Of a DNA stretch of 64,000 nt, positions 8,948-60,765 are shown piece after piece (the stretch's first letter is position 1; each line of letters begins with the position of its first letter). Location: NCBI GenBank assembly GCA_014871385.1, contig CM026422.1, positions 21,256,177 to 21,320,176 on the forward strand. Reading direction: 5' to 3'. Made by a program: the position numbers and the translations under genes. The notes under the pieces are model-generated. The model worked only from the letters and a program-made list of their open reading frames with translations, did no database searches and was not told the DNA's origin. The DNA comes from Ceratodon purpureus. Its lineage: Eukaryota; Streptophyta; Bryopsida; Pseudoditrichales; Ditrichaceae.

Positions 8948-9620
8948 ATGGATGAGTAAGTTAAAGTTGCTGGTCATAGCCCACTTTGAGAGTAGCAAAC
9001 TCAACCTCCTGCGTATCGATCTCTCACGGGCAGACACACAGAGGCAGCTGCAGGTTATGATCAACCCCCGACGGTTCATTGAGTCAGCAGTACAACCCAA
9101 CTGCTCTTCACGTTAACTGAAGCAGAAGATTGGGTAGAGTTAGAGCTTCAGCAAGTTGCAACCGGAAATCGATCTTAAGGAGTTGTTTTCGGAAGCAATT
9201 TTGGTGGTGAGGTTCACTAGTTATGGCAAGCTTGACAATCGGTTCCTAAGGTAGATCATTGCATAGCGTAAGCTTATTAGGTTACTCAGTTTCATGGACC
9301 TTCATCTTTCACAACATGTTAGCAGTTAGGACATATCCAGACTTGTTTCATCCAGATCCTCAGTTTTCAAAACTAGCTGTGTCCAAATTGAAAATCTATT
9401 GCAAGAGCCTTGAAACTTCGTTTACTTCGTTGTTTACTTCGTTGCAAGAACCTTGACGAGGCAAATTGAAAATTTATTTCCAGAGGGTTGAAACTCTCTT
9501 GCTGCAGTTGAGCGATGAAGAAAATTAGGGACACACATGCTCTCTGGATTTTATCAAGACGATGTAGAGAGTATCGACATGGATACTTCTAGGGCTGATT
9601 TCATAATGTTGTAGTTGTGA
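8948..9620 (+). repeat. Diverged direct repeat R1 (unknown gene-like sequence)
   Basis: R1 aligns over most of its length with R2 at 13780-14440 in the same orientation. Shared blocks include 'gagagtagc(a/c)aactcaacc', 'gcaggttatgatcaaccccc', 'actgaagcagaagattgggt', 'ccggaaatcgatct' and 'agaaccttgacga'. It is more GC-rich than its surroundings, and indels differ between copies. A 237-nt ORF in R2 (13903-14139) is broken by frame changes in R1, so at least R1 is decayed if this was ever coding. I do not recognise a protein family. Confidence 0.6.
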
Positions 9621-10899: not shown

Positions 10900-11480
10900 G
10901 TCATGACGGTCCCCAAGCTACAGCCAGGATCCGGCCCCTGCGTTGTACACTTTCGGCGTTTCTCCCACACACGATGAACACCATCCTGAAGTGCATCCTG
11001 AGCTGATCGAGGTTAATCCCAATTGCGCGCATGGTAGCGATTCCTCCGGATTTTTCCTTCTCAACATTCCGGCGACGGATTCGGCATGACGACGTACAGT
11101 ATTGTTCCAGCTGATCATTCCGAAGCTGCTCCAGCCGACATCTATCTTCCAGACTGCCTTTAAAGTCGGCTGACTCGCACATCGGATGCCAGAGATTCTC
11201 AAGCAATTCATTTTATGTATTCTTGATGCAATGCAACTAGACCGTCAGCCTGAATCGGGTTCGACTGTGTCGTGCTTATATATAAATATTGAATGTTTTG
11301 ATAGATCATGCAGACTATGAGCTGCATGTAGGACGCAAGAGATTCTGCACAACCATGAATATCGTGCTCTTCATATTATTCAAACTAATTATTTGCAGTA
11401 TGGATGTGCAATATTGCTCGGACCTGGACTAGCACATGTTCGTGCAATACTGTTCGATGAGATGACATATTGCTCGTTGC
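10900..11480 (+). pseudogene. Inverted relic of the tandem-Dof-like gene, 3' part
   Basis: Read on the plus strand, this stretch matches the C-terminal coding region and 3' flank of the genes at 12538-13389 and 59643-60488, which lie on the minus strand. Preserved blocks include the 'cacgatgaacaccatc' region (His/Glu-rich segment), 'gacggattcggcatga' (DGFGM), 'gccgactttaaag' in reversed context around the old stop codon, 'tattgaatgttttgatag' and 'gagctgcatgtagg' in the 3' flank. Indels and in-frame stops destroy the ORF. The zinc-finger half is absent, because LEA-like sequence takes over at about 10898. With the intact copy it forms a widely spaced inverted pair. Confidence 0.75.
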
Positions 11481-12160: not shown

Positions 12161-13679
12161 GCACAACGATCGATGATACGATCGATAACCACATACATGT
12201 GCTAGACGCCAAGGAATAAAGCACATCTATAAGTACTGCAAATAATCAATTTGAATTTAAAACGAAAGAGTGATTTAATTAGTGTTTATTCACGCTGAAC
12301 TTTGGTTGCAGTGCAGACTATCAAATTATGCCGAATTGTGGTCCAGGCTCATATCAAACATCTTGAATCTCTGTCCCCTAATATGGCCTCTAGCGACCTA
12401 CATGCAGCTCTCGGTCTACAGCTCTATCAAAACATTCAATAACTAGTATATTATACATATATAAACACCGATTGGGCCAGACGGTCGATTTTCTTGAGAA
12501 TCTCCGGCAGTATATCTGGAGTGCGAGTCAGCCGACTTTAAAGCAGCTCCTCGAAGTCTGAAAGATAGATCATGTCGGCTGCAGCAAGTGCTTCGGACAT
12601 ATGATCTGGAACAGTGTTCATCATGCCGAATCCGTCCGTGGAAAGGGCTGAAGGAAACAAGTCGGAGGAATGATCGTTGAGCTCTCCCAAGCCGTTCTCC
12701 CAATGGTAACATGGATTCTCGGAAGATACATGGTGAGGGCCTTCATGATGGTGTTCATCGTGCATGGGAGAATCGTCCATATTGTATGACGCAGCCTGAG
12801 CTGGATTCTGCAGCTGGAGGCTGTAGCTTGGGTCGCGGATGTCATTTGCAGCGAGTGCTTCGTCCATATTATGTTCATATGCAGCCTGAGCTGGATCCTG
12901 CAGCTGGAGGCTGTAGCTTGGGTCGTGATGGTTCTCTCCCTCGGCAGGAAACAGTATATCAAACATGTCAAGGTCATCTTCATTAGCATTTAGAATGGGT
13001 GACTTCTTATTCCTCGTCTCGTTGGCCACCAAAACTCCTCCCTTCAAGTGCATTTGAAAGAAGGCTCCACAGCTCAAACATTCGAACCGGGGTTGAGTCT
13101 CCCCACACCGCTTTTTATTGTTGTAGAACTTGAACTTTGCGTTATTTACGGCAAAACATTTGTTGCATTGCGTCCGTTGACCTCGGATCTCTACGGGGTC
13201 TTGGTTGCGGACCTTCTTGTAGTGCTTGGGTTTTGGCCTATGGTGATTCTCCCAAGTGAATACCACTTTGCAATCCAAGCATTTGTATCGGTGTTGGTTA
13301 CTTTTTTTATTGTTTAGGTACTTGAACTTCAAATTCCTAGACTGGCAATGCACACAAAACACCTCCTCCTCCATATTTGCAATCCCCACACAATTCTCTC
13401 AATTGATATGGCAATATGGGTTGATATGTTACTGTGCGAAATGGCAATATGGGTTGCTATTATTATGGTTTACAAAAATGGCACATGTAAAATGGCAAAT
13501 ATAGGTAGTACCAGACAATATAACAAATGGGAGTATGGGTAGCAAATTTTGTAGCTTGCACAACTGGATAGGGCCAGAGGTTACGAATGTGGGCAGTATA
13601 TATTATAAGCAACGGAAAAATGGGTTGCAAACGATATGGGTTATGTAAGTATCGACTTGCTTGATCACCACGTCACAGC
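12161..13679. repeat. 1.5-kb repeat unit, copy 1 (carries tandem-Dof-like gene)
   Basis: This segment is closely similar to 59248-60765 along its whole length, including the 3' flank, the gene and about 290 bp of promoter-side flank. Homology starts at 'gcacaacgatcgatgat' and ends at 'caccacgtcacagc'. I find no terminal inverted repeats and no target-site duplication. The copies therefore look like a dispersed segmental duplication rather than an identifiable transposon. The right end of the true homology is hidden, because copy 2 is cut by the tandem-duplication breakpoint. Confidence 0.85.
12538..13389 (-). CDS. Tandem Dof-like zinc-finger protein, copy 1
   Basis: An intronless ORF of 283 residues. 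Two zinc fingers lie in tandem. Finger 1 (C12, C15, C37, C40) has the exact CX2CX21CX2C spacing of Dof domains. Finger 2 (C75, C78, C104, C107) keeps Dof hallmarks (KF.FYNN, QPRFEC, a GG.L after the last Cys) but has a 25-residue loop. Known Dof proteins are plant DNA-binding factors, normally with one finger. The rest is acidic, with a repeated DPSYSLQLQ.PAQAA unit, a His-rich stretch and hydrophobic-acidic patches (LDMFDILF; MIYLSDFEELL at the C-terminus) that resemble activation domains. A nuclear transcriptional activator is inferred. The first Met is used; a second Met follows at residue 6. The paralogue at 59643-60488 is about 95% identical, with the fingers nearly unchanged, suggesting both are or recently were functional. 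Confidence 0.8.
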   Translation of the reverse strand: MGIANMEEEVFCVHCQSRNLKFKYLNNKKSNQHRYKCLDCKVVFTWENHHRPKPKHYKKVRNQDPVEIRGQRTQCNKCFAVNNAKFKFYNNKKRCGETQPRFECLSCGAFFQMHLKGGVLVANETRNKKSPILNANEDDLDMFDILFPAEGENHHDPSYSLQLQDPAQAAYEHNMDEALAANDIRDPSYSLQLQNPAQAASYNMDDSPMHDEHHHEGPHHVSSENPCYHWENGLGELNDHSSDLFPSALSTDGFGMMNTVPDHMSEALAAADMIYLSDFEELL

Positions 13680-15082: not shown

Positions 15083-18000
15083 TCATTCTAGGGGCTTCCG
15101 AACCAGAAAGAAGTACATAGGCGTGAAGACCTCCATCCTGCAACCGACCGGAGCTCGAAATCATCAGGACTGAACATTCGACTCTTCAAAGCTCGTAAAT
15201 CCAATTGGTAACGACAATAATGTTCCACGACAATAATCAGATATGAGATCATAATAAAGTTCCAGGAACTCACCGCCCACCGTCGACAAGTCCGAACAGA
15301 CCCTGCTCCAAGAAAGAGCTCACTCGAGTGCTTCCTTCTGGGGCAATCCTCAAGGCCTCCAGAGCACGCACCTGTAGAACAAATCAACGTTGCATAGCCA
15401 GGAATGAGTTCAAGATTGCACAAGTAATTTCTGTGAATTTCATCGTTCAAAGCCAGTGTGACCTGTGAATTATAGGATGCACGGCATCGAATGTCAGCGT
15501 TTCAATTCCAAGGGCGTACAATTGATGTATGCTCTAAATAGCCAACTCGGCTCCTTTGCTTATGGTGCTGAGAAATGGAAGCAATGCAGCATCAGAGTTG
15601 AATTGTCAACGTGAATACCATATTGTGGGTGAAGAAGCGACCAATAGGAGTAAGTCGAAGTGTGCTCAACGAGAAATGATTGGGGTCTAGTGGTTGATAC
15701 CACGGCACTTGGGAATCTTTAGCCAAATCCTCTTCCATAAGAATCTGTTCAGGAAAATAGAAATGGCTTAAGTGAACATAAACATAACAACACATCATTA
15801 ACAAAAATTAATCAAGCAGCCACCCCTAGAACCCAACAGGCCTAACAATTTCGAAGTGGACGATCGCTCATAAGAGTCCAACCAACACAGTACAAAGTGT
15901 CAAACCCGAATGCCAGGTTCAGCCTGTGCCTTCAAGACCATCTCCAAGAGTAATCGTAACCGAAATAAACAGGATAATACCTCAAAGCCAGCAGCTCTCA
16001 AGGCTTCGAGAACCTGGCGTGTGGAACGGATGTCAGGGAGGCCATTTCCAAGTTCTATCTCTTCCTGTGTGTTGAATAAAACAATTTATAAGAGTAGTTA
16101 GTAAACAGCTCTGCCAATTAAGGACCTCAGTTGCGAGGTTCATTCTGAATATTTAGACGACTCTGAATTATGCTCTTAAAACACACATTCCCTCCATTGT
16201 CCTCTCAATACCCCACACCGGACCTAAACAGCAGTGCCACCTAGAAAATTATCTGTCTACATTGCTTTATTAAACCTTGCAATTGAACACACAGTGTCAA
16301 AAGAACAAGTAATTTGAGTTGGGCAGATTGAGTATCTCGATATGGTAACTTTTCGGACGAGGCTGCTACCTTGATGCGTTTGTGATCCTTGTTTTCAGGA
16401 TTGTAAGCATCAGTTATGCACCACTCATAACCAGCAAAGAGTTGCCCTGGTTTCATTACTCTCTTGATCTCTGTATAACAGGCAACCTGAAAAACAACAT
16501 CCATAAAAAACAAATCAATCGTAGGTTCAATCAAGCGTGCGATAAACATCGGCAAAAATGGACCTGTAGCTCAAGATGGTCAGAGTGCATATAGACATGA
16601 ATAGTGATGGGATGCTTACTGGATCAGGGGCGTGACAGGAGGCCTCGATGGTATATACAGCATCATAAGTGTTGTCAGAAACTGGCATCTTCATGAAATC
16701 TGCCTGTAACAAACCCCCAGAAAGCTGATCAATACTGAACAAACTCTGAATGCAACGGTTATCTGAAAGGATGGTTATCGGCATGTCCTAAATAGCACCA
16801 CAAAAATGACAATGGACGACACTGTGAATATTGAAAGTTCGTTGAGAAGGTAGTGAAGGAGTTACTTACTTTCAAATAGTCGACGAGCTTGTCGAGCCCA
16901 GCTTTCTTTGTCAACACCTAAACAACCAGTAACGTATAGATTTGTTAATTGTCACATGACCTTTCTAAAACTGTATTACAAAATAACGAAACAATACAGT
17001 CAGGAAGACATTGATGTAAAAAGGCACCGCTACTTGAATCATACGCATATCACAGTGCTACTTCAAAGAGAAATGAGTCATGCGGTAAAAATCAGAAGGT
17101 TACCTTGCCACGAGCAATTTGAGTGTCATTGTTGTTCAGACCTGTCACTGAAGCTCCACTGAAATCCTTTCTAACGTCAGAATACAGAAGGCAAGAAGGT
17201 TTTTCACAGGTCTTAAATATCTCAGTCATTTGATGCATTTCATTAAACGCTTTAAGTTAACTAGATTATCTAGTCAAAGCTAGGGATGAAAGAAGACCAC
17301 TCACCTGAATGCTGCAATTTCACGCGCTGGGCCACCAATTCCACAACCAACATCCAAAACCTTTGCAAACCAGTACGTGTATGTCAAAATCGCACAAGTA
17401 AATACATCTCATAGCAAATAACCATGCATCAGCAAGAAAACCAACCAGATTTGCAGGATTGAGGATCTTTCCACAGTATTCACATCCGTATCAAAAATCA
17501 AATCACAACCAAAAGCCATCACCAACACGAAGCTAACCTTCATTCCTGGCTTCAATTGGAGATGCAGAGCCAGAAAATGCTCATGTCGTTTGATGCTTTC
17601 ACGAAGAGACTCCCCACGCCATCTGAGCACCGAAGATCATAGAGTATGTTATGCAACAAGGCTCTGTAGACATTCAAAGCTTAAATTAACGAGATTAAGT
17701 TTCAGAAACCCCAAAGTTTAGTGTAATATCCAGTGCAACTAAGGAACGGCAAATACCGATCAGATATCACTCGATCCTGACACTGGATACTGGAATAAGG
17801 CATTTGGAAAGGAAGTGAATTAACAGTGACGTATATGACCGCTGAGATCGCGAGGGATATAATCAATCACCTGTTAGCGAAGTGGTAACTTTCACCCCAA
17901 CCATACTCGTAGAAGCTGTTTACAAGGTCATAATACTTGTTCACCTGCAAAAATAGAGCAGGAGATGAAAGTAAGTCATCAGCACCTACCAATGTTAATG

Positions 18001-18979
18001 TACAACTATATGGGACTAACAATGCCCAAAAAGAGCGGACCTCCATATTTCTAGAAGAAACTGCTCGTGCGAGGAAATGGATGACATATTGAATATCTGA
18101 AAAGCAGAGACTCCTCACCATATCAGTGTAGTTAGCCTTTCTTGCTTCCTTATCACCGCCATGAAAAGAGTGATACTTTTCGTACCTGGAATTAAGACAT
18201 AAGGTTTAGAATTTTCTCCCAAACACAATACTCTCCCAAATATTATCAGAACCCGCCGTCCAAGGCATACCTCAGAACCTGGATATTCTGACCTCTTCAC
18301 CATTAATGATGGAACCAAAATTTTGTTACATCCCGGAAGAAAGAATTTGGTATGCAATCGCATGTTCACGCTTCTATATCTTTCCTTATATACAGAACGT
18401 TGAAACATACACATATACATAGATTTTAAAACCTACGACCTAAGGCCGATTCTCAACAAGTACTCCAAAATGTGCAACCCTCCATGAACATAGCTAAACG
18501 AGCTCACAGATCTTGGAAAATAAGGTTGCCTAAAAATCCATAGACAAGCCTCACTAATCGAAAATGTCATAAACCCATTGAAATTCTCACCGTGCATTCT
18601 ACTTCAGATCTCAACGCACATCACAGAACCTTGACACATTGTCTCACGCTGGCCAAGCTGGTGACCCGAACAATGCAGGTAACCAGGGGGCCAAGCCCGA
18701 AATGTCAAGCCCAATGCTTCTCTCTCGCTCTCATTTATAAAAGAAAACCGAAGCCCAAGTGGGGAAAGGACCGATCCAAAAGACACCGAAATAATCGTCG
18801 CCAAAGATTAAAAAACGCTCGTCAGTAAACTCTCCGAACCCAAACCCATGACGACAAAGCATCAACGAGGGAGAAGCGAAAGGGTAAGAGACGTACGCTT
18901 CAGTCGAGTTGAGCACCTCGTCCTTGGCCAACACCCCGCCAATGTTGCTCACCAAATGCCTCGCCCCTTCCTTCGCCAT
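15083..18979 (-). CDS. SMT1: Sterol C-24 methyltransferase (SMT1 class), 13 exons
   Basis: Thirteen coding exons join in phase with GT-AG introns: 18979-18897, 18185-18119, 17944-17871, 17622-17538, 17360-17305, 17158-17104, 16917-16870, 16703-16620, 16486-16370, 16064-15981, 15744-15619, 15371-15274, 15137-15083. The product is 343 residues, close to the usual plant length. The family transfers a methyl group from S-adenosylmethionine to C-24 of cycloartenol, in the ER. Visible marks are [29 protein letters not shown], the SAM motif [10 protein letters not shown] (about residues 104-113), [29 protein letters not shown] and the C-terminal [16 protein letters not shown] with this C-terminus fits SMT1 better than SMT2, though I could not run a phylogeny. 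The start is the first Met in the exon, aligned with the family N-terminus. No lesions are seen. Confidence 0.95.
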
Positions 18980-20227: not shown

Positions 20228-23200
20228 CTAAGCTTTGTGCTTGGCTGCAATGTGCTGAGTCATTGCCGATTCGGTCACAAACGTCCTGCACAAGCATTGT
20301 TGAAAGAATCTTTTGTCAACACCTAAATCCAAAGACAAACTGTAATTCCAGTGGACTCAACTGGACCAATAAGGAAACAAACAAAATTTCAGACCTTTAT
20401 CCAACGGCCAAGGTGTACACTAAACAAAGCTAACAGTATAAGAAAACCCTCGTTAGATTCCATTCGATAACTCCCCAGTACTTAATTAGAGAAAACTGTG
20501 AATGCTCAGATTTAATGAATGGTAATAGTCTCTTCAGGCCTTTAAGGCTCAGATTAACGAGATAAAATACTCCTCATCGCATTCTTCACCGAAAATTTAT
20601 CGAAATTGTAAGCGTAATACAACAAAAGTACTCTCTATTAGACTTGGTGCAAAAAATGATACTGTTGTTAATGGTATCACACTCTTAATGGGTGCTCAGA
20701 AATTAGAATGAATATTGTTTCCTCAAGCCCAAATGGCTCAGATTAACGAGATAAAGTATTCCTCACAGCACCCATAAATGAACAAGCACTCCTAATCAGC
20801 GAGAAATCGCAGGAGAATTTTTATCAGATTGAGCAAACTCACCTATCGCAGCCAGTGCACTTGTGTTGTCCAATCTTCTTCTCAGAAACAGGTGTTGTGG
20901 GTGGGGCAGTAGGTGTGCCCTTAGGAGCCTGTCGACCAAAATACATTTAGCATATTCCCAACCAAGTAACAAATATAACAAAAAATCAAATAGGACAGAT
21001 GAATGCTCAGATTGTAGAATGGTAAAAGTCTCTTCAGGCCTTAAAGGCTCAGATTAACGAGATAAATTGTTCCTCATTGCATCCTTCCAAGCACTACACT
21101 GACATATCTCAGATTTAAAGGAACCACCACCAAATAAACGTGACAAAACAGCGGACAATGTTAAGGCATAACACGTAGCTCCTGGAAATTAACAGAAACT
21201 AACCTTCGCTGGCTTTGATCCCTTATCCGTGGGGGTCTTCACTTCAGCAGGGGCAGCAACCTTCCCAACAGGTGTAGCAGGCCCAGCCTTCGCTCCTTTC
21301 TTTCCTGGAGATTGTCCTGCAGGGCCCATAGATTTAAGTTTCTAATCGATGGCTGAAGACAAAGGCTGGCATCTCAAGGAGCATTGAAAGTCTAAGGCAA
21401 TGCATACATACGATAGTCAACTCATAAAACAACCATGGTGCTGAAGATTTCTGTCGCAGAACCGGACTAATGTAGGGTTCAACGCAACACAAAAGCATTC
21501 CCAAAGACTCAAGTAAGCTGAACCCTTCATCCGGCGAATATCGCCAGCCGATACCTTTACTACCTGCAGCGATCAGGCTTTGCCAATATTCTGCAGCTGC
21601 TTCCTTTCCTGCTACCACTCTCTCTTTAGAAAACATTAAAGACTGACTACTTCTCGAAACCTTTCTAGTGAACAGTGTGAGCATCCGAAATGTCCCGATG
21701 AAAGTACACACAAGACATACTGACCTGGCTTTGAGGATGCATCGGTCTTGCTCTTCTTCTCGGCAGACTTGGCCAGTTCCTCCGCTGCTCTTTTCTTTCC
21801 GGGCTGCAGCACAAAAAATTTGAAACTTAGTACACAGTCTGAAGATAGATGGAGGAAAGCCGGGTTGAACATTATGTTCAGTGTCCAGAAGTTGAATGCT
21901 TAGGCAACATGAAAGAGGGTACATCCTGTTAGAGTGTCCTAAAAAAATGCTCATGCCAACGCAGAACTTAAGAAGACTCACCTTCGGTGCTTCGATCTTT
22001 AGCTCTTCCTCCTCAGACTCGTCCGACTCATCTTCGTCATCTTCATCGTCATCTTCATCGTCATCATCTTCATCCATGTCCTGCAAACCAAAAATCAGTG
22101 TCAACCGTCATGCGCGGGGTAAGGATAGAAGTGCCGGAAAGAGCAGTTATCTCTTCGACTTCAAGACCACAAATTGAAAAAAATTCTGCATCATTCAAAC
22201 CCCGTGAATGCAGCAACATGCACCCATGAACACACTGACACACCTCATCAGAATCATCACCAGCATCAAACTCGTCATCAGATTCGGAAGCTAAATCGCT
22301 CACAAATGGATGTCCCATACCCTCATCCTTTTTAAGGCAACCCACCACGACCATATTAGTTTCACTCAAGCCACAAACGCCAAGCTCACACGTTACCGAT
22401 AAAAGGAAAATAAAAGAAAATCTCGTACTAAAACAAGCAAGACGAGACTAGCAATCCGACAAATCAACACAGATGTAGCTAGAACGCAACCCACCTCATC
22501 GTCTGATTCATCTTCCTCGTCAGAAGAGGACTCCACAACTTGCTTCTTCACGCCCTTCTTCTGGGCCGCGTTGGTAGTGGCTTTCTCTACCGCCTTCTTA
22601 GCTGCATCCTCGGCCTTCGCTTTAAGTTGCTTGCCTGCATGAAAAACATATTAGAAGGATGCATCAAGAGCATGAAAAAGCAACACTGTACTCTAAACAT
22701 TACTGCTTATCTACATTGATTGCCCTAGAAAATTTCGAATGCCCTAGAATCATTAGGTCATCGAATATTCCTGAGCACGAACTGAGAACTTAGGTATTAC
22801 CCCTAATCAACGCATGCCGCATTCGGCCAGGAAACCTTGACGTGAAATGATCAGATGTGTTTTACATTTAGGTGCTCTGCCATACCGGCATGAAATTCGA
22901 TAGAATACGGATCAAAAGAAAATCATGAGAGAAAATGGCTTCGAGACACAGTAATTCCAGGAATCATTCGTCATCAACCGTGACTTTTGGATGCTGGTCT
23001 ATCTCTCTCAAGGCACCTTCAGAAGGTTTGCCTGCTATCCAAACTTGTTCTCACTGAAGATCTACTATCATTTCCTCTCGAGGAACCCAGGGTTAACGAT
23101 GAAGAATTATCTAAATTACAACCCTCCGATCATTTCTATCCGAACTAAAGAAATCGCAGGAAACTGTACGATTAGCATTCGATCCTAAATGGTACCTGCC

Positions 23201-24829
23201 GAAGCTCCATTTGACTCGATTGGGACTGCTACGGGCATGTCCTCCTCCTCCTCTTCGTCTTCCTCCTCTGATAAGGAAAACGTTCTCACGTATTAGACCA
23301 CAAAATTTAGAGCCAATTACAGCAGTGTAATTCTAGCAAGCGGACCATGATTCGTACTTATCAAAAGCCAGCAGCAAAAAGACTGACATGTTAAAGAAAG
23401 AGTATGCACCTTCTGAATCATCATATTCGGGACCCTCGGTGCGATATCCGCATATGTATACACTCGAAGAGCTGCTGTTGTGGGAGACAGTGAACTCCCT
23501 GTCAAATACTAGATCAAGAGGCATCTGATCGCACTTTCCCTCTGAGAGGGTTCCCAAAACGACTTCGCTGTCATCAACTTGAACCTTCAGAACAACTCTT
23601 GCGTTTCCCTTCCCGCTCTTATCCTTGCTTTCTCCCAAAGCAGCCTGCCACCGTCAAATGAAATGAGCGAAATCATATATCCCAAAGATGTTTTTGGTCA
23701 TCACATGTCGCGCTCGAGACCCACACACAAGTATACTGTCTGACTCATACAGGACACAATAAACGCTCCCATAGAAACAACAAAAAGACAGGCTGATGTC
23801 TCACACTCAAAGCATGAAATCACACAGAATTATATCTACGTCAATAAAACAACCACATATGGAGGGGACAGAGAGAAGATGTAAAGCTTACCTGGGACAC
23901 GTGCAAGTACATTCCATCACCAGGATGACATGAAGTCGGCTTGCCCGACGGCACCTCAACACCTGTGCACAAATACATTGAGGTACCATGAGGATGGTCG
24001 CAGTTCAATCTAATTAAACATAGTCCAATGCAGTAATACATAAATGTCACAAGAATGACCATCTCTTCCTTCTTTATTAATCACGACAACCTCAGAAGGT
24101 ATCAACGTTTCCATTTGCCTGAAGTAGCATGAAATCTGATGATTCTTTAGACGTGTATGAAGATTTAAAAAAATCGTATGTTCGTCGCCTATTCCAGCAT
24201 CGATACATAATCTATGGTTTAGCCAATATCACACGTGCAGGAACATACACTACTCCAACAAATACTATCACGTAAGAAGTGACAAAACCAAATCAATCCG
24301 CCCCCAAATCAACCTATACCAACCGATCGTTACAACGACGAACCTTACAACTCCAGACCTAAAACCAAGATTTATTAACCATCCAAAATGACCCAATCCT
24401 AGAGAAATATTGTAAAACCTCATGACGACGCACTACATGACTACATACTGACTCCTCAATCTGTAACTAAAACCTAACCCACAAACCTCAAGGCCACCTA
24501 CAGGCATGATGCACATGTAAACCCAAAACAGAAACTCCTCACATCCTGTAAGGAAACCCACCTCCATCCACATCGACAAACGCCCCAACTCATGAAAATC
24601 TCCTAGAAACTTATAACCATGCTTAAACCCTAGACAAGAAGATGAAGCATACAAACGCTACGAAACTCGGATCATTCCATAAACCCAACAATGGTTAACA
24701 ACAAAGAACAGGAACAAGACCCCAGAGATGACCACAGATGCTCCCAGAGATGCGAGGAAGATCAATGGGAGCAAGATCCGAGAGCAGGAGTGCAAGGGTT
24801 TAAGGAGAACACATACCCCAAAACTCCAT
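20228..24829 (-). CDS. HDT: HD2-type (plant-specific) histone deacetylase, 11 exons
   Basis: Eleven exons join in phase with GT-AG introns: 24829-24817, 23962-23892, 23644-23410, 23267-23196, 22634-22495, 22327-22244, 22080-21982, 21803-21725, 21316-21204, 20928-20843, 20285-20228. The product is 349 residues. The N-terminus begins MEFWGVEVPSGKP, the hallmark of the HD2 family, whose start is coded by a 13-base first exon. The nucleoplasmin-like domain spans about residues 1-105 (HVSQ, VVLGTLSEGKCDQMPLDLVF). The middle is strongly acidic (DDDDED runs), then Lys/Ala-rich. The C-terminus has a C2H2 finger (C326, C329, H342, H347), split by the last intron after GCDR. HD2 proteins are nucleolar/nuclear chromatin regulators, and some have lost the finger. 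Here it is present. Introns 9 and 10 carry a repeated 80-bp sequence. Confidence 0.93.
20502..20584. repeat. Intronic repeat, copy 1 (HD2 intron 10)
   Basis: About 83 bp with 'atgctcagattt', 'tctcttcaggcc', 'ggctcagattaacgagataa' and 'tcctcatcgcat'. Related copies lie at 20692-20774 in the same intron and 21003-21085 in intron 9, all in the same orientation. Confidence 0.8.
20692..20774. repeat. Intronic repeat, copy 2 (HD2 intron 10)
   Basis: The most diverged of three copies. It keeps 'tggctcagattaacgagata' and 'attcctca', but the left half differs. Confidence 0.75.
21003..21085. repeat. Intronic repeat, copy 3 (HD2 intron 9)
   Basis: Close to copy 1: 'atgctcagatt', 'tctcttcaggcctta', 'aaggctcagattaacgagat', 'tcctcattgcat'. 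Presence in two adjacent introns points to local duplication of intron sequence. Confidence 0.8.
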
Positions 24830-44095: not shown

Positions 44096-47000
44096 CTAAG
44101 TTAAACCTACATTAACAAAATCGCCACAAGGGGGCTGCCGATAAGTCCAACGGATGCGTTCATCCTGGAACGAGCAGAATACCGTACTGGTGAGCCACGT
44201 CTGCTGGAAGGCCTCATCTGCGTTGCCGAGGGCCTCCGGTTGATTCTCCCGCATGTCCTCAAGGGAATACCACGCCGTTCGGACCAGGTCCAACATAGCC
44301 TCCCAAAGGGCCAGTTCAGTCATCAAGCTTGTCCAACGCGTGGCCGCGAAGACTTGCGCGTTGCGCCGAATCCAGATTACCCAGAGTGTAGAACCTCTGA
44401 GCAGGGACCATAAGTGTTGGTGGGCCTGCAGGTATGGGGGCAAGGCAACCCCCAGCAAGCACTGCTCCCAGGCTAAGCGGGGCCACGGTTGGGGTTCATG
44501 GTGTTGTCGTGCCGCATGGTGCAACACTGAATTGGCGAAGTCCCAAGCCTGTAGCGCCCCTGGACAGTCAAAGAAACAATGACGGAGGGACTCCTGGGCC
44601 CCAGTATCGCAGCAAGTGCAAAGGTCAGACGTCTGAGGGGCTCCCTGAGTCCTCCAAAGGTTGACAGCCAGGGCTTTGTGGAGTAGACTCCACATAAAGC
44701 CGGCTTCCTTCGTTGATCGATCGCGGTGCCAGATGTCCTCCCACTGAATCTGATAACCCTGTGGCCATTCATGCCGCCACTTATCATGGACCGGGAAGGA
44801 GAGATTAAGGCGCGGGCGGTAAGTTGTACGCCCCAACTTCGCCGTATAGGCGTGTAGGGTGGAACCACAAGGCCACTGCCAGCGGCCCGGATCGAAGGAT
44901 AGCACATTGACAGGGGCAAGGTATCGGGAAATACCAGAGGCTCCGCGTCGGCGAGAGCCAGGAGGCTTACGGTTGGTTACAATGATCCGGATACGGCGAA
45001 GGATGCCGCGGATATGCTGCGGGCGCTCAGCCGGGACAATGGCACTCGAAATGGTGCCTGTCCGGAACAGCGAGATGTCACCTGGGACGTCGAATTCCGC
45101 ATCGACGGACAGAGCGGGCGTGTACTTCGAGTTTGTACGGAAGAGCAGCTCGGGCGTCTCAGCGTGGGCACTGTCAAACACGCCAAGCCACTCATCCGGG
45201 AGAGATTGGGTTCGAGTGTGCTGGCAGATGGCGAGCCAAGGGGCCGGGAATTGCCTACGAATGAGGTCAAAGAAATTGGCCTATCCTGCTTCGGAAGGCG
45301 AAACCGCCGGCTGATTTCGGCCCAGGGCAGGAGGGACTGATTAACAGGATCCCAGAGGTCAGCAACCTGGGTGATACCCCGCCGCGCAAGAAAGCTAGCC
45401 CGTTGAGGAGTGGCCCCGAAATTGTGGCCAAAAAAGTGAGTAGTCCACCATAGATGGGTGTTGAGCACCTCATCATAGTTGACTGGGGGCGTTGCTTCCA
45501 CCAGGGGACACATTTGACGCCAGGCTTTAATCACCCGCATCCACACACCAGAGCTGCGCGGAGAAGAGAATTTCTTCAGTAATGGCCAGTGCAAGCTATC
45601 CGGCCATGAGCCGGCGCTGTTGGGCTTAGTGTGGCCAAGCCTGTGCCGCAGCAGAATATGAAGCGGTGAGGACCCGGGCTCTAATCCTTTAAGGACCCAC
45701 TTCGACATAAGAGCAGTTAGGGCCTCATCAGGATCAATGAGCCCGAGACCTCCGTGCTTTTTCGAAGCGCAGCAATCATCCCACCTCACGCGCACGCGAG
45801 TGTTTTCCTCCGTACCAGACCATAAATAACTCCGGAGCCGACCCCTGATGGTGCGAAGGATTGCAGTAGATCCTCCCCAAATGCTCAAGAAATACCACAG
45901 CGTGGATAGGAGAACCGAATTGACTATTACTGCGCGACCTGCGAGAGATAAGTGTGTCGACGTCCAGTATTTCAATTTGCGAGTCACCTTGGCAGCCAGG
46001 AAGTTATCAATGTCCACTATGTCCGGGTGGAGGCCAAACGGTATCCCTAGGAATCGGGTGACCGCGTTATCAGTGACTATCCGACAGCCAAAGGATTGTA
46101 ACCAGGGCGGGGGAGGGGCAGCCCCGTACCAGTAAATTGCACACTTTTGGCGATTGATGTAGAGGCCGGAGGCTAGGCCAAATTGGTCCATTAAAGTAGA
46201 GACCGCCTCAAGGGAATCAGCGTCGCCTTGGAGGGAGAATGTTGCATCATCGGCGAACTGAGTTAAAATTTGCTGGGTCTCGCCGTCTGGGAGACGGATT
46301 CCGCGGATCTCCCCCGCACTGAGTGCTTCCTGAGTGCTGGCTGCAAGCACTTCGGCCACGAGTATGAATAGGAGAGGCGCCAATGGGCAGCCTTGACGGA
46401 CGCCCCTGCGAATGGAGAATGGTTTCAAAGGTACCCCGTTGAGGAGGACACTTGCGCTGGCCTCCTGCAGGAGCATGCGGACCATACTAACAAAGGTCGG
46501 GGGGAGTCCCATGCGGTCAAGAACAGCGTACAGGTACTTCCACGAGACCATGTCATAAGCCTTACTAAAGTCCAGCTTAAGCATTGCTAGTGGTTGCTCG
46601 GAGTCTTGGGCCCACGATATAGTTTCATATTGAACCATTACGGCATCGAGAATATATCTCGAAGGCACGAATGCCGATTGACCTTCTTGCACGACCTCAG
46701 GGAGCAAGCGACTCAGCCGTAGTTGCAATGTTTTGGCAAAGACCTTATAAGAGGTATTAAGGAGAGTGATCGGGCGCCAGTTGCTCAGCAACTCCCGATC
46801 ACCCTCTTTGGGGAGCAGCACGACCAGACCTGTGTTCATGCCCTGGGGCAAGCGGCCGTTGGCGATGGCGGTGGCGAGCATCAACTCAAAATCCCCTCCG
46901 ATAAGATCCCAGAATAGGTCGTAAAATTCAACCACTACACCATCGGGCCCCGGACTCCGATTTTTGGCCATGCTGCGCACTGCTTCGCCCAACTCCTCTT

Positions 47001-48408
47001 TAGTTGGCGGGGCCCCGAGTAGAGCTACAGGTTCAGGGCGACAATTTTCGGTGAAGCGAGGAGGGAGGGATTGAAGCATCCGAGCTTCAGCGGCTGAATG
47101 ATCCGCCGAGGAAGGGTGCTCATCATACAAGCGACTGTAAAAGTCGGTAATGGCGGCCTCCATCTCAGGGATAGTGGTAATACGGCGCCCATCCTCCTGT
47201 TTAAGGGCAGAGAGCGGGGCGGTTTGAGGGCGTTCACGTACGCATGCGAAGAATTCCCTAGTCACTTTATCCCCTTTGGCCCGCCACCGAATGCGGCTGC
47301 GCACGCGGCGTCCCGCGATTATGCGGGACTCATGGATTGCGAGGTCTGATCGCAAGCTGGTGCGGCGAGCTGAGAGTGTGGCGTCGGGGAGAGTCTGTTG
47401 CATGGTATCCGTGGCTTCGGCGAGCTCTTGCTTCAGCCGATCATGTTCGGCGCGGAAGGAGGCCGCCTTTTCCTTACAGAATCGACGGTACTCTGTTGTA
47501 ACGAGCCGCATTTTTGTGAAAAAGGAAGAGCCGGCCGGTGCCGCTACCCACAAGTCACGAATCTTGGGGCTGACCTCTTCAAGCCATTTGGCGTTCATTT
47601 TCCAATGGCGGGGCTGCGGGGGGCGAGCCGCAAGCTGTAGGGAAACCAGTACCGGATGGTGGTCGGAGCGGGACATATCTCCCCGGATCTCGTATCGAAC
47701 CAGCGTGCGTCCTCGTGCTGTCGGTACACTGGGGAAAACATACAGTCGGTCCAGTCTCGCGAGGGAGCGGACTTCTGCGTCGCGCCCATTTTCCCATGAG
47801 TAACGGAGGCTGCCGGCGGTTCGAGGCGGGTCTTCGACGTGCAGGGTGCACTTCAGGGCGTCAAATAGTTCCCGTTCACGACGAGGGATCATAGACGCAT
47901 TAGGCCGGTTCTTGTCACATCGGGCTTCCACCATATTAAAATCTCCTAAGAGGAGCCAGCGACAATGTGTGGGCAGGTCGCGCGCCATGGTTTCCCATAG
48001 TGTGCATCTTTCGGGGGAGGTGTTATGGGCATAAATGTTAGCAATACCTAGATCACCCCCGGGAAGCCCAGAAAGTATGAGCCATTGGACCCGGTTCTCC
48101 AAGATCGAGCCCGAAGCCGTTACTGCATGAGTCCATTTCGGCGCCAGCAATGTTATAGTGCCACCACAACCTGCTCCCGTCTCGTCTTCGAGGTGACCAT
48201 AGCCCGGGGAGGCATCCGACGCATAACATTGTGCGTGGCGCCACAGTCGGGGCCCCAGGGCAGTGAGGGCATCACCCCTGCGTTTATGTTCCTGGATTAC
48301 CACGACATCAAGTGCGGGTTGACAGGCTTGGATGTATAGCTGGAGAGCATCCACAGCTGCGGGGTCGTTAAGCCCGCGGGCATTAAAGGAAAGGAGGTTT
48401 AGTCGCAT
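44096..48408 (-). pseudogene. LINE ORF2: endonuclease-reverse transcriptase, one frameshift
   Basis: ORF2 starts at 48408 with MRLNLLSFNARGLNDP, the opening of an APE-type endonuclease. That domain continues with VVIQEHK, LLLGDFNM and RSDHHPVLV within the first 250 residues. The reverse transcriptase has SPGPDGVVVEFY, NWRPITLLNTSYK, QSAFVPSRYILDAVM, LKLDFSKAYDMVSW, RRGVRQGCPLAPLLF and the catalytic FADD in LTQFADDATF. The first frame runs on to a stop at 44977, but true homology switches frame near 45275-45290. From there the other frame continues to a stop at 44096 and contains the zf-RVT zinc-binding tail (AGFMWSLLHKALAVNLWR and C..C....ESLRHCFFDC). Unbroken, ORF2 would be about 1,437 codons. 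A one-base assembly error could also explain the break. Confidence 0.9.
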
Positions 48409-50786
48409 AATCTCCTTGCAGGAGAGTTGTAGGCGTCTCCATCGCTCGAGGTGGTCATGGCTGCGCGTCTAAAGCCCCAAAGATCATATGCGGATCGAGG
48501 GGCAGTGGCACATGGTGCGGTTGTAGGTGCAGGCGGGGGCGAGGGCCTCTGTCGCGCCGTTGCTCGCAGGGCGCGGAGGGATCCTTGTGCCGGGGACTGG
48601 GCAGAGGTTGTGGTCGCGCCGTCCTGGGAGGTATTGTGAGTAACAAGAGGGCTACCTTGGGCGGAGCGACGGGCCTGGGGAGAGTCCCTTGGACAAGCGG
48701 TTGGGGAGGATGGTTCTGGCAGTTGAGGATTGGCATCCTCAAAGGTATCATCCTCGGATTGACTGCTCGCCGGACGTCGGTCAGGCTGCCCTGTGAGATC
48801 CAGAGGGGCCTGCGGACTGGCGGGCTGGCCGTTGGGATCAGCAGCAGGAATGCCGGGAGTCTGAGCCACAGGTTCCAGAGCTGGCCCTACAGGCCCTTTG
48901 TCTAGGCTGGGGGAATGGGGCCCGTGGCTGAGGAGAGGAATATACCCGTCGGAAGAAGGGGGGGACGGATCGCCAAGCGGAAGGGGATTACCTCCGTCAA
49001 CCTCCATAGCACGGGCTGTGGGGGAGGTGGGTACTGCTTCACTAGTAGGCTGAGTAGTCGCTGGGAGTGGGGCCGATGGTAAGAGGTGCCTATGGCGGGG
49101 GTACCGGTCCCTGGGCACGGCTTCCCACCCATTCCATTCATATTCAGGAGTCAGCCTAGATTCACCATTCGAGTAGTGATTACCCGACCGAGAGGCCGTG
49201 ACGCCGGCTTCAGAGGATCCAGCCGCGGGGCTACCTCGTGGAGAGTGAACCTGTGCGGAAGGGGTGGCGTGTGGGTCAACCACGCTGGGCCGATCATCAG
49301 CTAGGGTCGAGGATAATTCGCCTGGAGAAGTGGCTGGTGGGATAGAGGGAGGAAAGGCCAATCGGCTATCCTCTGAAGGGGTCACCGTGGCATTGGATGC
49401 ATGAGGATCAAGGCTTGCGTCCGAGGGGGGGGGGGGGGTCGGTAGCAATGCTGGAGGCCTGACATCCCATCCTGATCTTCGACGAGGACGGGGAAGAGGA
49501 ACGGGGCTGGCGGCCTGAGGGGAGTGATGGGGATCAGGGGCCACATCTGTCATAAGGACGTCGGGGGGCTCCGGGGGAGGGGTAGCGACGGAGGGGAAAT
49601 CACCTTGCCCCGCCGGAAGGGTGGCAGTGAGGGGCGCCATGGGGCGCTCATCCCATCGTGAGGGGCGACGTCGAGGTTGCACTGTGGTGAAACCATCAGC
49701 GTCTACTTCTGGCGTCGAGGGATGTCTCCGGTACGGCCTGCGTCGCCTACGCCAATGACGGTGGGGTGGGTCCCTATGGCGATGGGGAGGATCCCTCGCC
49801 TGGGGCTCGACCCTTCTGTCAGGACGAGGCGCCCGAGGAGGAAGCGACGGTCGGCGGCGGGCTTCCGGCGGGGTGGAGGGCATGTGCCCAAGCACGGTGG
49901 TCGTAGGAACAGAAGGCCGGGGGGGGCGCCGGTGAGGGGGCTTGGGAAGGAGAGGGCACCTATCGGAGGCGTGGGTATGGTTACCACAGTGCCTACAGTG
50001 AAGCTCCAGCCCTTCATATGAAACTGGGATTACTGCGCTCCCTCCTATGGCACTCTGGCCGATTACAGTGGAAATCCAACCTCGGGCTAGGTCCACCCCG
50101 ACGCAAAAACGAGCGGGTGGGACACGCTCGGACTGAATGTCTGTCGCTAGCACCTTGCCAACTTGTGACGCCACCGTCTGCGCTAGTTGAAGATATTCCA
50201 GAGGCAGGGTCGGGAAAGAAACCCAAAAGGAGGTAAGGAGACCTTGGAGGGTCCGAGGGTTAAAACCTTGGACCCAGGGTTGGTAGATCATCGTGCCGCC
50301 GTCAAACTGGTGCATAGGGTAAAGCAACATGTGCTGCGTCGTCGCGGGGCAGTCCGTGCGCACGTAGAACACTCCCGGCCCTGCAGATTGGTGACCCAAA
50401 ATAACGCCCGGGCTAACCCGGGTCCGCAGGGAGGCGATCCACACTGCCTCGGTGGTAGCGGGGAGCTGCCCTGTAGAGGTTCGAGCAATAATGACATGGT
50501 CTTTCAAAAACTGAATTTCCCTACCAAGGAGTTCAAGGTCTTCCCCCTGCACTGTAAAAGAGACCGCTCCGCGAACCAGAAGGCCAACAGAATTACGAAA
50601 CACACCTGGTGGTAGGGTCTCGCCGGCCGTCAGGTGAAGAGGGTGAAGCCGGCGCGGGCCACCGGGGTTTGCCAGGAGCACTGTGCGCAGTGCCTGCATG
50701 GTAGCGGAAGACTGGTCGCGCTGCGTCTTCCCAGATTCCTGCCCGTGCGTCAGCGCCGTGCGGTACGAGGGCTTGGCGTACTCCAT
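48399..50786 (-). CDS. LINE ORF1: nucleic-acid-binding protein with CCHC knuckle
   Basis: 795 residues. The first 260 or so form a folded region of the kind found in plant L1 ORF1 (DUF4283-like: a domain with VSFTVQGEDLELLGREIQFL and TEAVWIASL) ending in a zinc knuckle CRHCGNHTHASDRC (CX2CX4HX4C). The remainder is very rich in Pro, Ser, Arg and Asp and probably disordered. ORF1 proteins bind LINE RNA to form the retrotransposition particle. The stop codon overlaps the ORF2 start in a 10-base overlap (ATGCGACTAA), so ORF2 is presumably reached by termination-reinitiation. A run of about 12-14 G on the plus strand near 49427 encodes a Pro run and is a likely indel hotspot. Confidence 0.9.
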   Translation of the reverse strand: MEYAKPSYRTALTHGQESGKTQRDQSSATMQALRTVLLANPGGPRRLHPLHLTAGETLPPGVFRNSVGLLVRGAVSFTVQGEDLELLGREIQFLKDHVIIARTSTGQLPATTEAVWIASLRTRVSPGVILGHQSAGPGVFYVRTDCPATTQHMLLYPMHQFDGGTMIYQPWVQGFNPRTLQGLLTSFWVSFPTLPLEYLQLAQTVASQVGKVLATDIQSERVPPARFCVGVDLARGWISTVIGQSAIGGSAVIPVSYEGLELHCRHCGNHTHASDRCPLLPKPPHRRPPRPSVPTTTVLGHMPSTPPEARRRPSLPPRAPRPDRRVEPQARDPPHRHRDPPHRHWRRRRRPYRRHPSTPEVDADGFTTVQPRRRPSRWDERPMAPLTATLPAGQGDFPSVATPPPEPPDVLMTDVAPDPHHSPQAASPVPLPRPRRRSGWDVRPPALLPTPPPPSDASLDPHASNATVTPSEDSRLAFPPSIPPATSPGELSSTLADDRPSVVDPHATPSAQVHSPRGSPAAGSSEAGVTASRSGNHYSNGESRLTPEYEWNGWEAVPRDRYPRHRHLLPSAPLPATTQPTSEAVPTSPTARAMEVDGGNPLPLGDPSPPSSDGYIPLLSHGPHSPSLDKGPVGPALEPVAQTPGIPAADPNGQPASPQAPLDLTGQPDRRPASSQSEDDTFEDANPQLPEPSSPTACPRDSPQARRSAQGSPLVTHNTSQDGATTTSAQSPAQGSLRALRATARQRPSPPPAPTTAPCATAPRSAYDLWGFRRAAMTTSSDGDAYNSPARRLCD

Positions 50787-56302: not shown

Positions 56303-56506
56303 ATGGAATTATTAGTAAGGATATTTTTGATATATTATGTAAAATTCATTGATATGCTTACATCAATATTGTCAAATATTGATTCATGGATAACTGGATT
56401 AACAAATGAACCAGATTCTCAAGAAGCAAACTGCGAAGAACTTACAGAAATGAATCAACAACAAATAGATTGCATGGTTTGGGTAAGGACACAAAAATCT
56501 ACATGA
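56303..56506 (+). other. Possible exon of an unidentified gene
   Basis: A 67-codon ORF whose second half (TNEPDSQEANCEELTEMNQQ) is more protein-like than the AT-rich start. It is followed by a plausible donor (TTTGGGTAAGG) at about 56481. An identical ORF is at 63333-63536. No family is recognised, and it may be non-coding. Confidence 0.25.
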
Positions 56507-56872
56507 AAATCTTTATACTTTATAGATGATAACATTTTCAATTTCTTTCCAATGCTCTATTTTCATCCTTAATTTCAAAAACAATTCTAAAATTCAAGCC
56601 TCAATGATCTATTCAAAGAAACACAATAAGGTTCTAAAACAGTACATTCTTCTTTTGTAGGACCTTTCAAAAAGCTAGAGTTCCACAAAGTATCTAACAA
56701 GACAAATACGTTCATAGTTCCAAAGAGCTTTGAAATATATTGCAACAGCCATCAATTACAGATTAGCAAAACAGATTTATCTCATTTCTTCACATTACAA
56801 GGACTAACACTTTGTTTGTGCATGTTCAAATAACAGAACTTTGAGAAAGAGCCAGAGATGTCATTTCTAGAG

Positions 56873-59247: not shown

Positions 59248-60765
59248 GCACAACGATCGATGATACGATAACCACATACATGTGCTAGACGCTGAGGAAT
59301 AGTGCGTGCATCTATAAGTACAGCAAATAATCAATTTGAATTTAAAAGGAAAGAGTGATTTAATTAGTGTTTATTCAGGCTGAACTTTGGTTACAGTGCA
59401 GAATATCAAATTATGCCGAACTGTGGTCCCTCGTATCAAACATCTTCAATCTCTGTCCTCTAATATGGCCTCTAGCGACCTACATGCAGCTCACAGTCTT
59501 CAGCTCTATCAAAACATTCAATAACTAGTATATATACAATGTTTAAGCAACCATTGGGGCAGACGGTCGATTTGCTTCAGGAATACAAAATGGGAAGCTT
59601 GAGAATCTCCGGCAGTATATCTGGAGTGCGAGTCAGCCGACTTTAGAGCAGCTCCTCGAAGTCTGAAAGATAGATCATGTCGGCTGCAGCAAGTGCTTCG
59701 GACATATGATCTGGAACACCGTTCATCATGCCGAATCCGTCCGTGGAAAGGACAGAAGGAAACGAGTCGGAGGAATGATCGTTGAGCTCTCCCATGCCGT
59801 TCTCCCAATCGTAACATGGATTCTCGGAAGATACATGGTGAGGGCCTTCATGATGGTGTTCGTCGTGCATGGGAGAATCGTCCATATTGTATGACGCAGC
59901 CTGAGCTGGATCCTGCAGCTGGAGGCTGTAGCTTGGGTCGGGGATGTCAGTTGCAGCGAGTGCTTCGTCCATATTATGTTCATACGCAGCCTGAGCTGGA
60001 TCCTGCAGGCTGTAGCTTGGGTCGTGATGGTTCTCTCCCTCGGCGGGGAACAATATGTCAAACATGTCAAGGTCATCTTCATTTGCACTTAGAATGGGTG
60101 ACTTCTTACTGCTCGTCTTGATGGCCACCAAAACTCCTCCTTTCAAGTGCATTTGAAAGAAGGCTCCACAGCTCAAACATTCGAACCGGGGTTGAGTCTC
60201 CCCACACCGCTTTTTATTGTTGTAGAACTTGAACTTTGCGTTATTTACGGCAAAACATTTGTTGCATTGCGTACGTTGACCTCGGATCTCTAGGGGGTCT
60301 TGGTTGCGAACCTTCTTGTAGTGCTTGGGTTTTGGCCTATGGTGATTCTCCCAAGTGAATACCACTTTGCAATCCAAGCATTTGTATCGGTGTTGGTTAC
60401 TTTTTTTATTGTTTAGGTACTTGAACTTCAAATTCCTAGACTGGCAATGCACACAAAACACCTCCTCCTCCATATTTGCAATCCCCACACAATTCTCTCA
60501 ATTGATATGGCAATATGGCTTGAAATGTTACTGTGCGAAATGGCAATATGGGTTGCTATTATTATGGTTAGCAAATAACAAATATAACAAATGTAACCAG
60601 ACAATATAACAAATGGGAGTATGGGTAGCAAATTTTGTAGCTTGCACAACTGGTTATGGCAAGAGGATACGAATGTGGGCAGTATATATTATAAGCAACG
60701 GAAAAATGGGTAGCAAACAATATGGGTTATGTAAGTATCGACTTGCTTGATCACCACGTCACAGC
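59248..60765. repeat. 1.5-kb repeat unit, copy 2 (carries tandem-Dof-like gene)
   Basis: Partner of 12161-13679. The left edge falls about 160 bases beyond the GH35 remnant. The right edge is the tandem-duplication junction, where the unit's last bases (CACAGC) pass straight into 'catgaacgagatctcg' of the small gene. Confidence 0.85.
59643..60488 (-). CDS. Tandem Dof-like zinc-finger protein, copy 2
   Basis: 281 residues, intronless. It differs from copy 1 (12538-13389) by about 14 substitutions and a two-residue deletion in the first SLQLQ unit, so identity is about 95%. All eight zinc-ligand cysteines (12, 15, 37, 40, 75, 78, 104, 107) are unchanged. The only change before residue 120 is V66L, in the linker between fingers. 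Most changes fall just after finger 2 and in the acidic tail. The pattern suggests that purifying selection acts on the DNA-binding half. The C-terminal MIYLSDFEELL patch is identical. The upstream flank matches copy 1 for about 280 bases, so proximal promoter sequence is shared. Confidence 0.8.
   Translation of the reverse strand: MGIANMEEEVFCVHCQSRNLKFKYLNNKKSNQHRYKCLDCKVVFTWENHHRPKPKHYKKVRNQDPLEIRGQRTQCNKCFAVNNAKFKFYNNKKRCGETQPRFECLSCGAFFQMHLKGGVLVAIKTSSKKSPILSANEDDLDMFDILFPAEGENHHDPSYSLQDPAQAAYEHNMDEALAATDIPDPSYSLQLQDPAQAASYNMDDSPMHDEHHHEGPHHVSSENPCYDWENGMGELNDHSSDSFPSVLSTDGFGMMNGVPDHMSEALAAADMIYLSDFEELL

Follow-up and report, generated by a model that had tools for sequence, protein, structure and literature searches.

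An expanded family of two-finger, Dof-derived zinc-ribbon proteins in the moss Ceratodon purpureus

A gene on the reverse strand of the window (the whole stretch of DNA analysed, 64,000 nucleotides at G000:C2:21256177-21320176 of an assembly of 362,488,568 bp in 151 contigs) is intact and likely encodes a transcription factor that carries two altered Dof zinc fingers and an acidic tail. The gene, termed copy A, has many relatives: 47 loci in the same genome have at least two Dof-type fingers in an open frame, and the tandem-finger architecture that the initial annotation proposed from this gene is a real, much repeated class. The family is Dof-derived and is distinct from the canonical Dof factors; multi-Dof genes as such were already noted in 2024, as the available text of PMC10842470 records. 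We estimate, from sequence evidence, a probability of roughly 0.6 that the family comprises two-finger, Dof-derived, expanded DNA-binding activators with diversified specificity.

The gene and its duplicate in the window

The open reading frame at 12538-13389 (-) was confirmed, and copy A is a single open frame within it. Translation has its natural start at the ATG at 13374, and the GTG at 13389 represents a mechanical extension only. The features of copy A and of related sequences in the window are:

12541..13374 (-): copy A coding sequence, two-finger Dof-like protein of 278 aa; stop codon at 12538-12540
13270..13356 (-): finger 1, CX2CX21CX2C, residues 7-35
13261..13269 (-): KVV (residues 36-38), the triplet after the fourth cysteine of finger 1; its homologue in CDF2 is Q169-R170-Y171, and it is variable in the family
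13168..13269 (-): inter-finger segment, residues 36-69, containing the basic conserved linker PKPKHYKKVRNQDPVEI(R/Q)GQRTQ
13069..13167 (-): finger 2, CX2CX25CX2C, residues 70-102
13060..13068 (-): triplet after the fourth cysteine of finger 2, GAF, residues 103-105
12541..13035 (-): acidic tail, residues 114-278, about 165 residues
12949..12987 (-): activation-domain-like stretch ANEDDLDMFDILF
12860..12925 (-): internal tail repeat, first copy (DPSYSLQLQDPAQAA)
12773..12835 (-): internal tail repeat, second copy (DPSYSLQLQNPAQAA)
12541..12600 (-): hydrophobic-acidic C-terminus MSEALAAADMIYLSDFEELL
13597..13607 (-): TATA-like TATAATATATA, roughly 225 bp before the start codon; copy B has it too, from 60693 downwards
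12285..12290 (-): AATAAA, about 250 bp past the stop codon; also in copy B, from 59375
12161..13679 (-): 1.5-kb block of transcription-unit size, duplicated at 59248-60765 (92% identical)
59646..60473 (-): copy B, a second open two-finger gene of 276 aa; protein 94% identical to copy A
10912..11341 (+): broken inverted relic of a related copy, comprising its tail and 3' part

The initial annotation had described two tandem Cys4 fingers, the first with exact Dof spacing and the second with a loop longer by 4 residues, followed by an acidic, activator-like tail with repeats, and both descriptions hold. Finger 1 reads C7-X2-C-X21-C-X2-C35 and finger 2 reads C70-X2-C-X25-C-X2-C102; the tail is 19% D+E and 2% K+R and contains the duplicated unit DPSYSLQLQ(D/N)PAQAA. 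The TATA-like element is a candidate promoter element, and the AATAAA is a putative polyadenylation signal.

Copy B lies in the open reading frame at 59643-60488 and has its own Dof match. The two copies have identical fingers and a single change in the linker, and the duplicated 1.5-kb block extends, on the strand of the gene, from before the TATA-like sequence to past the AATAAA. Comparison of copies A and B yields 12 synonymous and 15 nonsynonymous changes (P = 0.0026 under neutrality for 15 or fewer nonsynonymous changes among 27), and for codons 1-112 it yields 3 synonymous and 1 nonsynonymous changes (P = 0.02). Because copy B is open and 94% identical in protein, with nonsynonymous changes below the neutral expectation, we conclude that the copy A frame is not a chance frame.

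Further duplications lie in and near the window. A 7.0-kb tandem unit adjoins copy B (53756-56970 and 60756-64000, 98.8% identical); a further tandem unit with an almost identical gene copy (L009) lies just outside the window, and another (L010), on contig C33, has a damaged frame. The segment 13788-14440, upstream of copy A, goes back to an old duplication that it shares with 8952-9619 (69% identity across about 700 bp); tblastn showed no finger copy beside 8952-9619. Elsewhere in the window, a LINE-type retroelement occupies 44096-50786 (-), with a G+C content of 0.56-0.62, much higher than that of its surroundings, with matches to reverse transcriptase, zf-RVT and DUF4283, and with an endonuclease match just below cut-off. 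An exon at 23336-23653 (-) encodes a nucleoplasmin-like domain (PF17800, E 1.4e-13) with acidic and basic pieces downstream, an arrangement that we take to be that of nuclear FKBP-type prolyl isomerases. Exon pieces at 15595-18205 (-), of which one of five scanned matches Methyltransf_11 (E 2.3e-4), presumably resemble a plant sterol C24-methyltransferase. The sole match to a known RNA in the window is a snoU30 C/D-box snoRNA at 20694-20770 (-), at 46.6 bits against a gathering threshold of 45.

Dof homology and DNA-contact residues of the fingers

The name Dof stands for 'DNA binding with one finger'; copy A has two fingers, and one relative, L038, has three. The initial annotation had placed both copy A fingers near Dof and had named a profile search of each finger as one check. 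The search assigns both fingers to the Dof profile family: PF02701 (Zn_ribbon_Dof) scores 51.7 bits (E 1e-13) against the whole protein, 36.3 bits (E 6.1e-9) against a 54-aa piece containing finger 1, and 29.5 bits (E 8.3e-7) against a 61-aa piece containing finger 2, so that each finger alone passes the gathering cut-off of 26.6 bits. For copy A and its finger pieces, no other Pfam model, of a Cys4 family or otherwise, reached its cut-off, and assignment of the copy A fingers to another Cys4 family was rejected on that ground. All 26 aligned family members match PF02701 at E <= 0.01; at the same threshold, Zn_ribbon_Nudix gives weak matches in five of the 26, and five further families match one member each.

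Comparisons of the fingers with each other and with known Dof domains agree with the profile search. Finger 1 and finger 2 of copy A are related (BLASTP E 6e-7, in that single comparison), as are the first-finger and second-finger types compared profile to profile (E 1e-11), and the two types match the canonical Dofs of the same genome at E 9e-10 and 5.7e-8. Among solved structures searched by sequence, CDF1 gives the best match, through its Dof domain (chain 8xuf_C), at a weak E of 0.072.

The match to the Dof domain is partial. The best stretch of copy A spans positions 3-40 of the 59 in PF02701, whereas canonical genes of the same genome span 2-58 or nearly so. The complete Dof domain of 50-59 residues, including WTxGG..LRNVPVGGG, is lacking in copy A, and the C-terminal third is absent from the match; some other divergent matches extend to position 51-56, at low score. 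The spacing CX2CX21CX2C is exact in finger 1 of copy A, finger 2 has CX2CX25CX2C, and in distant members CX1C occurs in finger 1 as well.

Compared with canonical plant Dof proteins (PF02701; the CDF/PAPL lineage and others), the family shares the Cys4 zinc-ribbon core, with the CX2CX21CX2C spacing in finger 1, the F.Y.NN..Q.R pattern, and a long tail outside the finger. It differs from them in having two fingers (once three) instead of one, a longer loop in finger 2, and an acidic tail, and copy A differs further in that the equivalents of K166, R170, Y171 and W172 are replaced and the WTxGG..LRNVPVGGG segment is missing.

Each of these four residues has been mutated in Arabidopsis CDF2: according to the available text of PMC9477738, Y171A and W172A abolish DNA binding, and K166A and mutation of R170 strongly reduce it. 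In the cysteine-based alignment, the residues at the positions of K166, R170, Y171 and W172 in copy A are L, V, V and F in finger 1, and L, A, F and F in finger 2. The replacements extend across the family (n = 20). Lysine occurs at the K166-equivalent position in 0 of 20 members, in either finger; at the R170-equivalent position, arginine occurs once per finger, and lysine occurs once in finger 1 and six times in finger 2; at the Y171-equivalent position of second fingers, tyrosine occurs in three of 20 and phenylalanine in 11 of 20; and at the W172-equivalent position, phenylalanine occurs in 19 of 20 first fingers and in 20 of 20 second fingers. In the ten canonical Dofs of the same genome, R-Y-W-T is invariant. 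As judged from the alignment, family members keep the zinc scaffold and have replaced, variable residues at the positions predicted to read DNA.

Family size, finger constraint and mosaic copies

Genome searches show that copy A belongs to a large family. A tblastn search with copy A gave 113 matching stretches at E <= 10, and PF02701 gave 138 matches at E <= 1, which were grouped into 87 loci by joining matches within 400 bases on one strand; for large families, counts of this kind are lower bounds. Ten of the 87 loci are canonical one-finger Dofs (at least 113 bits, model positions 2-58); the other 77 are divergent (at most 62.4 bits), and 65 of these have a match over the cut-off. At 47 of the 77 divergent loci, two or more matches lie in one stop-free frame. 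These 47, which are open frames and include some that are damaged or truncated, form 31 clusters on 10 contigs, with 23 on contig C2; 45 are in frames of at least 170 aa, and at 44 every counted match is over the cut-off, the second finger falling below it at three. Several family copies are arranged in tandem arrays.

Damage is seen in parts of the family. Among the 47 are the seven tandem units of L021, which are tail-less and stop early; L024, which is frameshifted and has its linker out of frame; L012 and L020, in which the fourth cysteine of finger 1 is absent; and L033, whose finger 2 is without one cysteine. L010 is frameshifted as well, and several tblastn matches of copy A have internal stops. 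A 3633-aa frame at C13:7041526 was rejected as an assembly gap beside an ordinary copy.

Several further loci and regions stand out. L038 (G000:C10:12338000-12340200) encodes three Dof-like fingers in a single 658-aa frame (PF02701 E 2.8e-37), and the first of them keeps FTHGG, close to the canonical WTxGG. Six loci (L053, L058, L055, L056, L059 and L060) are divergent single-finger Dof-like frames, in two of which (L055 and L056) AT-hook-like GRP motifs are seen by eye before the finger; the six are possible intermediates between canonical and two-finger genes. A scan confined to six short peptides found no relatives in viral or prokaryotic contigs, and tblastn found none in plasmids. Contig C6 (more than 106 Mb), presumably the large sex chromosome of Ceratodon purpureus, carries 0 of the 87 Dof-type loci. 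The species is listed among mosses in which the sex chromosome exceeds all other chromosomes in size (PMC10619864, available text).

The finger module is conserved in sequence. In an alignment of 26 members, the eight cysteines, the NN of each finger, Q27, Q94-P95-R96 and F106 are invariant or nearly so, with F106 present in 26 of 26. The basic inter-finger linker has the consensus PKPKHYKKVRNQDPVEIQGQRTQC in the copies nearest copy A. Rates of change confirm constraint. Of 14 pairs tried, with members shared among pairs, 13 gave a dN/dS value for the finger module; it was 0.06-0.19 in 11 of these, and 0.34 and 0.57 in the remaining two, both from a young clade. A parsimony count on a tree of 18 members gives an omega of 0.18 for the module outside the triplets, 0.15 for the linker, and 0.02 for the eight cysteines, which are nearly invariant (two of 20 members are without one), consistent with zinc coordination. 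The tails evolve faster than the fingers or are not alignable. We conclude that purifying selection acts on the zinc scaffold.

Within the module, change is fastest in the two triplets that follow the fourth cysteines. For residues 36-38 and 103-105, an omega of 1.40 was obtained (42.7 nonsynonymous and 7.3 synonymous changes among the 18 members), and among 5671 triplet pairs only one has as many nonsynonymous changes, presumably 36-38/103-105 itself (two without L017). The triplets were picked after the per-position entropy had been seen, and they are also the positions of published contacts; single codons outside the triplets, for example 45 and 98, are also variable. The excess of omega over 1 is not significant (P = 0.22), omega is 1.11 without the mosaic copy L017, and relaxed constraint would give the same range of 1.1-1.4.

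In the 12 members nearest copy A, mean identity is 0.59 among first fingers and 0.58 among second fingers, versus 0.35 between the two fingers of one protein, and the second fingers cluster together (support 90 with L030). For these 12 members, whose fingers group by position, a recent within-gene finger duplication was therefore rejected, and, because the fingers are more alike by position than within a protein, the two-finger arrangement predates the radiation of these members. First fingers are equally near canonical Dofs (0.36) and second fingers (0.35), and so both an old duplication and an old fusion of two diverged Dof genes are possible. For the distant members L035, L038 and L041, grouping by position is unclear, and many nodes are weak; the finger-labelling pattern assigned F1 to the second finger of L032 and did not pick up those of L033 and L039.

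The tails are acidic and the finger modules basic. In 15 of 17 members (one of which, L021, has a 25-residue remnant), tails are 17-25% D+E and at most 8% K+R, and L028 and L029 are without an acidic tail; residues 1-112 have a net charge of +6 to +16 in 17 of 17. By a rule of our own, an activation-like 13-mer has at least four acidic residues, at least five of WFYLMI, and no K, R or H. The copy A tail has 14 such 13-mers, a count reached by 5 of 500 shuffles. For seven of 15 tails, three of them homologous, the count was reached by at most 21 of 500 shuffles, and for the other eight it was not enriched over shuffles. Tail composition thus gives weak support for a predicted activation function.

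Several copies combine parts of different origin. The first finger of L017 is nearest those of L026 and L027; its middle has 72 bases identical to L014, followed by 80 identical to L013, followed by an A-type tail. In a recombination scan of the finger module, in which parents were chosen after inspection of the mosaic patterns, breaks in L017 near 116-125 and 269-293 were supported in five tests (0 of 999 shuffles every time), and a switch in L013 near 287 in two tests (0 of 999), so that the mosaic nature of L017 has statistical support. The L014/L013 comparison, made in an initial scan that included non-homologous tails, did not reach significance (74 of 999).

Upstream regions are also exchanged. 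In the 800 bp upstream of L014, two pieces (1-557, and 639-756, which stops 44 bp short of the ATG) have matches at loci in C2:8.69-8.73 Mb, and at the one locus inspected a different open reading frame follows. The 394 bp upstream of L018 are 94% identical to C2:11045357, up to the base before the ATG, and other DNA follows there; comparison of the L018 junction with its empty counterpart shows a right-hand (3') boundary that is not clean. In L019, L020 and L021, an in-frame N-terminal piece resembles, by eye, the N-terminus of the L063 frame up to STM. For L014, L015/L016, L018 and L019/L020, frames 91-98% identical are joined to unrelated upstream DNA at or a few bases from the ATG, which gives the impression that only the coding sequence was moved behind different leaders. 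We conclude that the copies combine fingers, tails and upstream regions in a mosaic fashion.

Proposed function, alternatives and significance

According to the reading that we favor, the copy A protein would be a nuclear, sequence-specific transcription factor of a Dof-derived family expanded in this moss lineage. The two Dof-type zinc ribbons, which the basic linker joins, would bind neighboring DNA sites, and recruitment of the transcription machinery by the long acidic tail would make the protein an activator. Scaffold and linker are kept constant, and the triplets after the fourth cysteines, which are thought to make the major-groove contacts of Dof domains, differ among paralogues; because these triplets differ, members probably read different sequences and not a shared AAAG. 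The family grows by duplication, both tandem and dispersed, and by recombination in which copies exchange fingers, tails and upstream regions. The two-finger proteins are predicted to bind zinc, to be nuclear, to bind DNA with altered specificity, and to activate transcription.

The initial annotation had suggested recognition of a double AAAG-type site, and an ordinary Dof activator whose two fingers jointly read such a site would account for the Dof profile matches of both fingers, for the NN, Q(P)R and cysteine positions held in common with canonical Dofs of the same genome, and for first fingers as near canonical Dofs (0.36) as second fingers (0.35). The contact residues speak against that suggestion: the equivalents of all four AAAG-binding residues of CDF2 are lost in both fingers of copy A, lysine is never found at the K166-equivalent position (n = 20) although R-Y-W-T is invariant in the ten canonical Dofs of the genome, and the C-terminal third of the domain, with WTxGG..LRNVPVGGG, is absent from the copy A match (model positions 3-40 of 59). 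The replacement of contact residues on a scaffold that is kept argues against a plain double AAAG reader and in favor of either a changed specificity or a loss of DNA binding; we doubt a bipartite AAAG site and judge the ordinary Dof activator unlikely. The same replacements mean that the fingers may not bind DNA at all, and the ribbons might instead bind proteins, such as other Dof factors or the basal machinery, in a co-regulator or decoy. The near-neutral rate of the triplets fits such a role as well, but fingers and linker are constrained (omega 0.18 and 0.15) and basic, F106 is invariant in 26 of 26 aligned members, and a decoy has no obvious need for two conserved fingers and an activator-like tail; we regard protein-binding ribbons as improbable, though a reading to be taken seriously.

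Two further explanations concern the copies themselves. A selfish frame carried on a mobile element, needing no cellular role, would be in keeping with two-finger loci on 10 contigs, with homology between dispersed copies that starts at most 30 bases from the ATG in many pairs among the matches listed, and with upstream regions of L014 and L018 that copy sequence lying elsewhere before other DNA. We find this very unlikely, since inspection by eye showed no terminal repeats or target-site duplications where the 1.5-kb block of copies A and B begins and ends, Pfam finds only Dof in the main frame of that block, the 3' boundary of L018 is not clean, several copies lie in tandem arrays, and the fingers are under purifying selection. 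Equally slight is the prospect that the family is an annotation or assembly artefact or mostly dead pseudogenes. The frameshifts of L010 and L024, the early stops of the L021 units, the internal stops in several matches and the assembly gap behind the 3633-aa frame point that way, and the available text of PMC10842470 states that artefacts could not be ruled out. Against this, copies A and B are single open frames, which excludes a gene-model fusion and, for both copies, an artefact of sequence; 47 loci have at least two fingers in an open frame, not all of them undamaged; and diverged pairs show purifying selection on the fingers.

The initial annotation had raised the possibility that the architecture was undescribed, and this stands in part. 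In the available text of PMC10842470, Waschburger et al. (2024) counted 16 multi-DOF genes (three in Ceratodon purpureus, four in Physcomitrella patens, five in Aquilegia, three in Actinidia and one in Rhododendron), called them unreported and possibly artefacts, and presented a larger tree in which Dof domains grouped by gene. The architecture had thus been noticed, in mosses among others, as proteins with more than one Dof domain, and it had been left with artefacts not excluded. The family described here differs from that set, as far as the same text presents it, in its 47 loci, its conserved linker, its mosaic copies and, among the 12 members nearest copy A, a grouping of fingers by position; the three Ceratodon genes are plausible members of it. 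A literature search by phrase, whose scope left most subscription journals outside, found no other description of two-, double-, multiple- or tandem-Dof proteins; in the accessible text of three plant papers with such wording, the terms refer to binding sites or to two separate genes.

Animal KRAB zinc-finger and PRDM9 repertoires combine lineage-specific expansion, a constrained zinc scaffold, variable DNA-contact residues and recombination. The resemblance of the present family to these repertoires is one of how the systems work; the C2H2 fold is unrelated, the effector domains are different, and in the present family, unlike in the animal ones, diversifying selection is not significant. We raise as a tentative idea, less probable than not in our view, that mosses keep a fast-evolving, two-finger, Dof-derived repertoire with a fixed scaffold, diversifying DNA-reading triplets, and recombination that reassorts fingers, tails and promoters. 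The targets of such a repertoire might be transposons or other fast-changing DNA.

That a large two-finger family exists, with many of its frames open and selection acting on its fingers, indicates tandem usability of the Dof fold, and it answers, for the Ceratodon purpureus genome, the published doubt whether multi-Dof genes are artefacts. The family provides a plant system for asking how a zinc-ribbon reader changes specificity. If the triplets set the target, the dozens of natural variants on one scaffold would make the recognition code directly testable.
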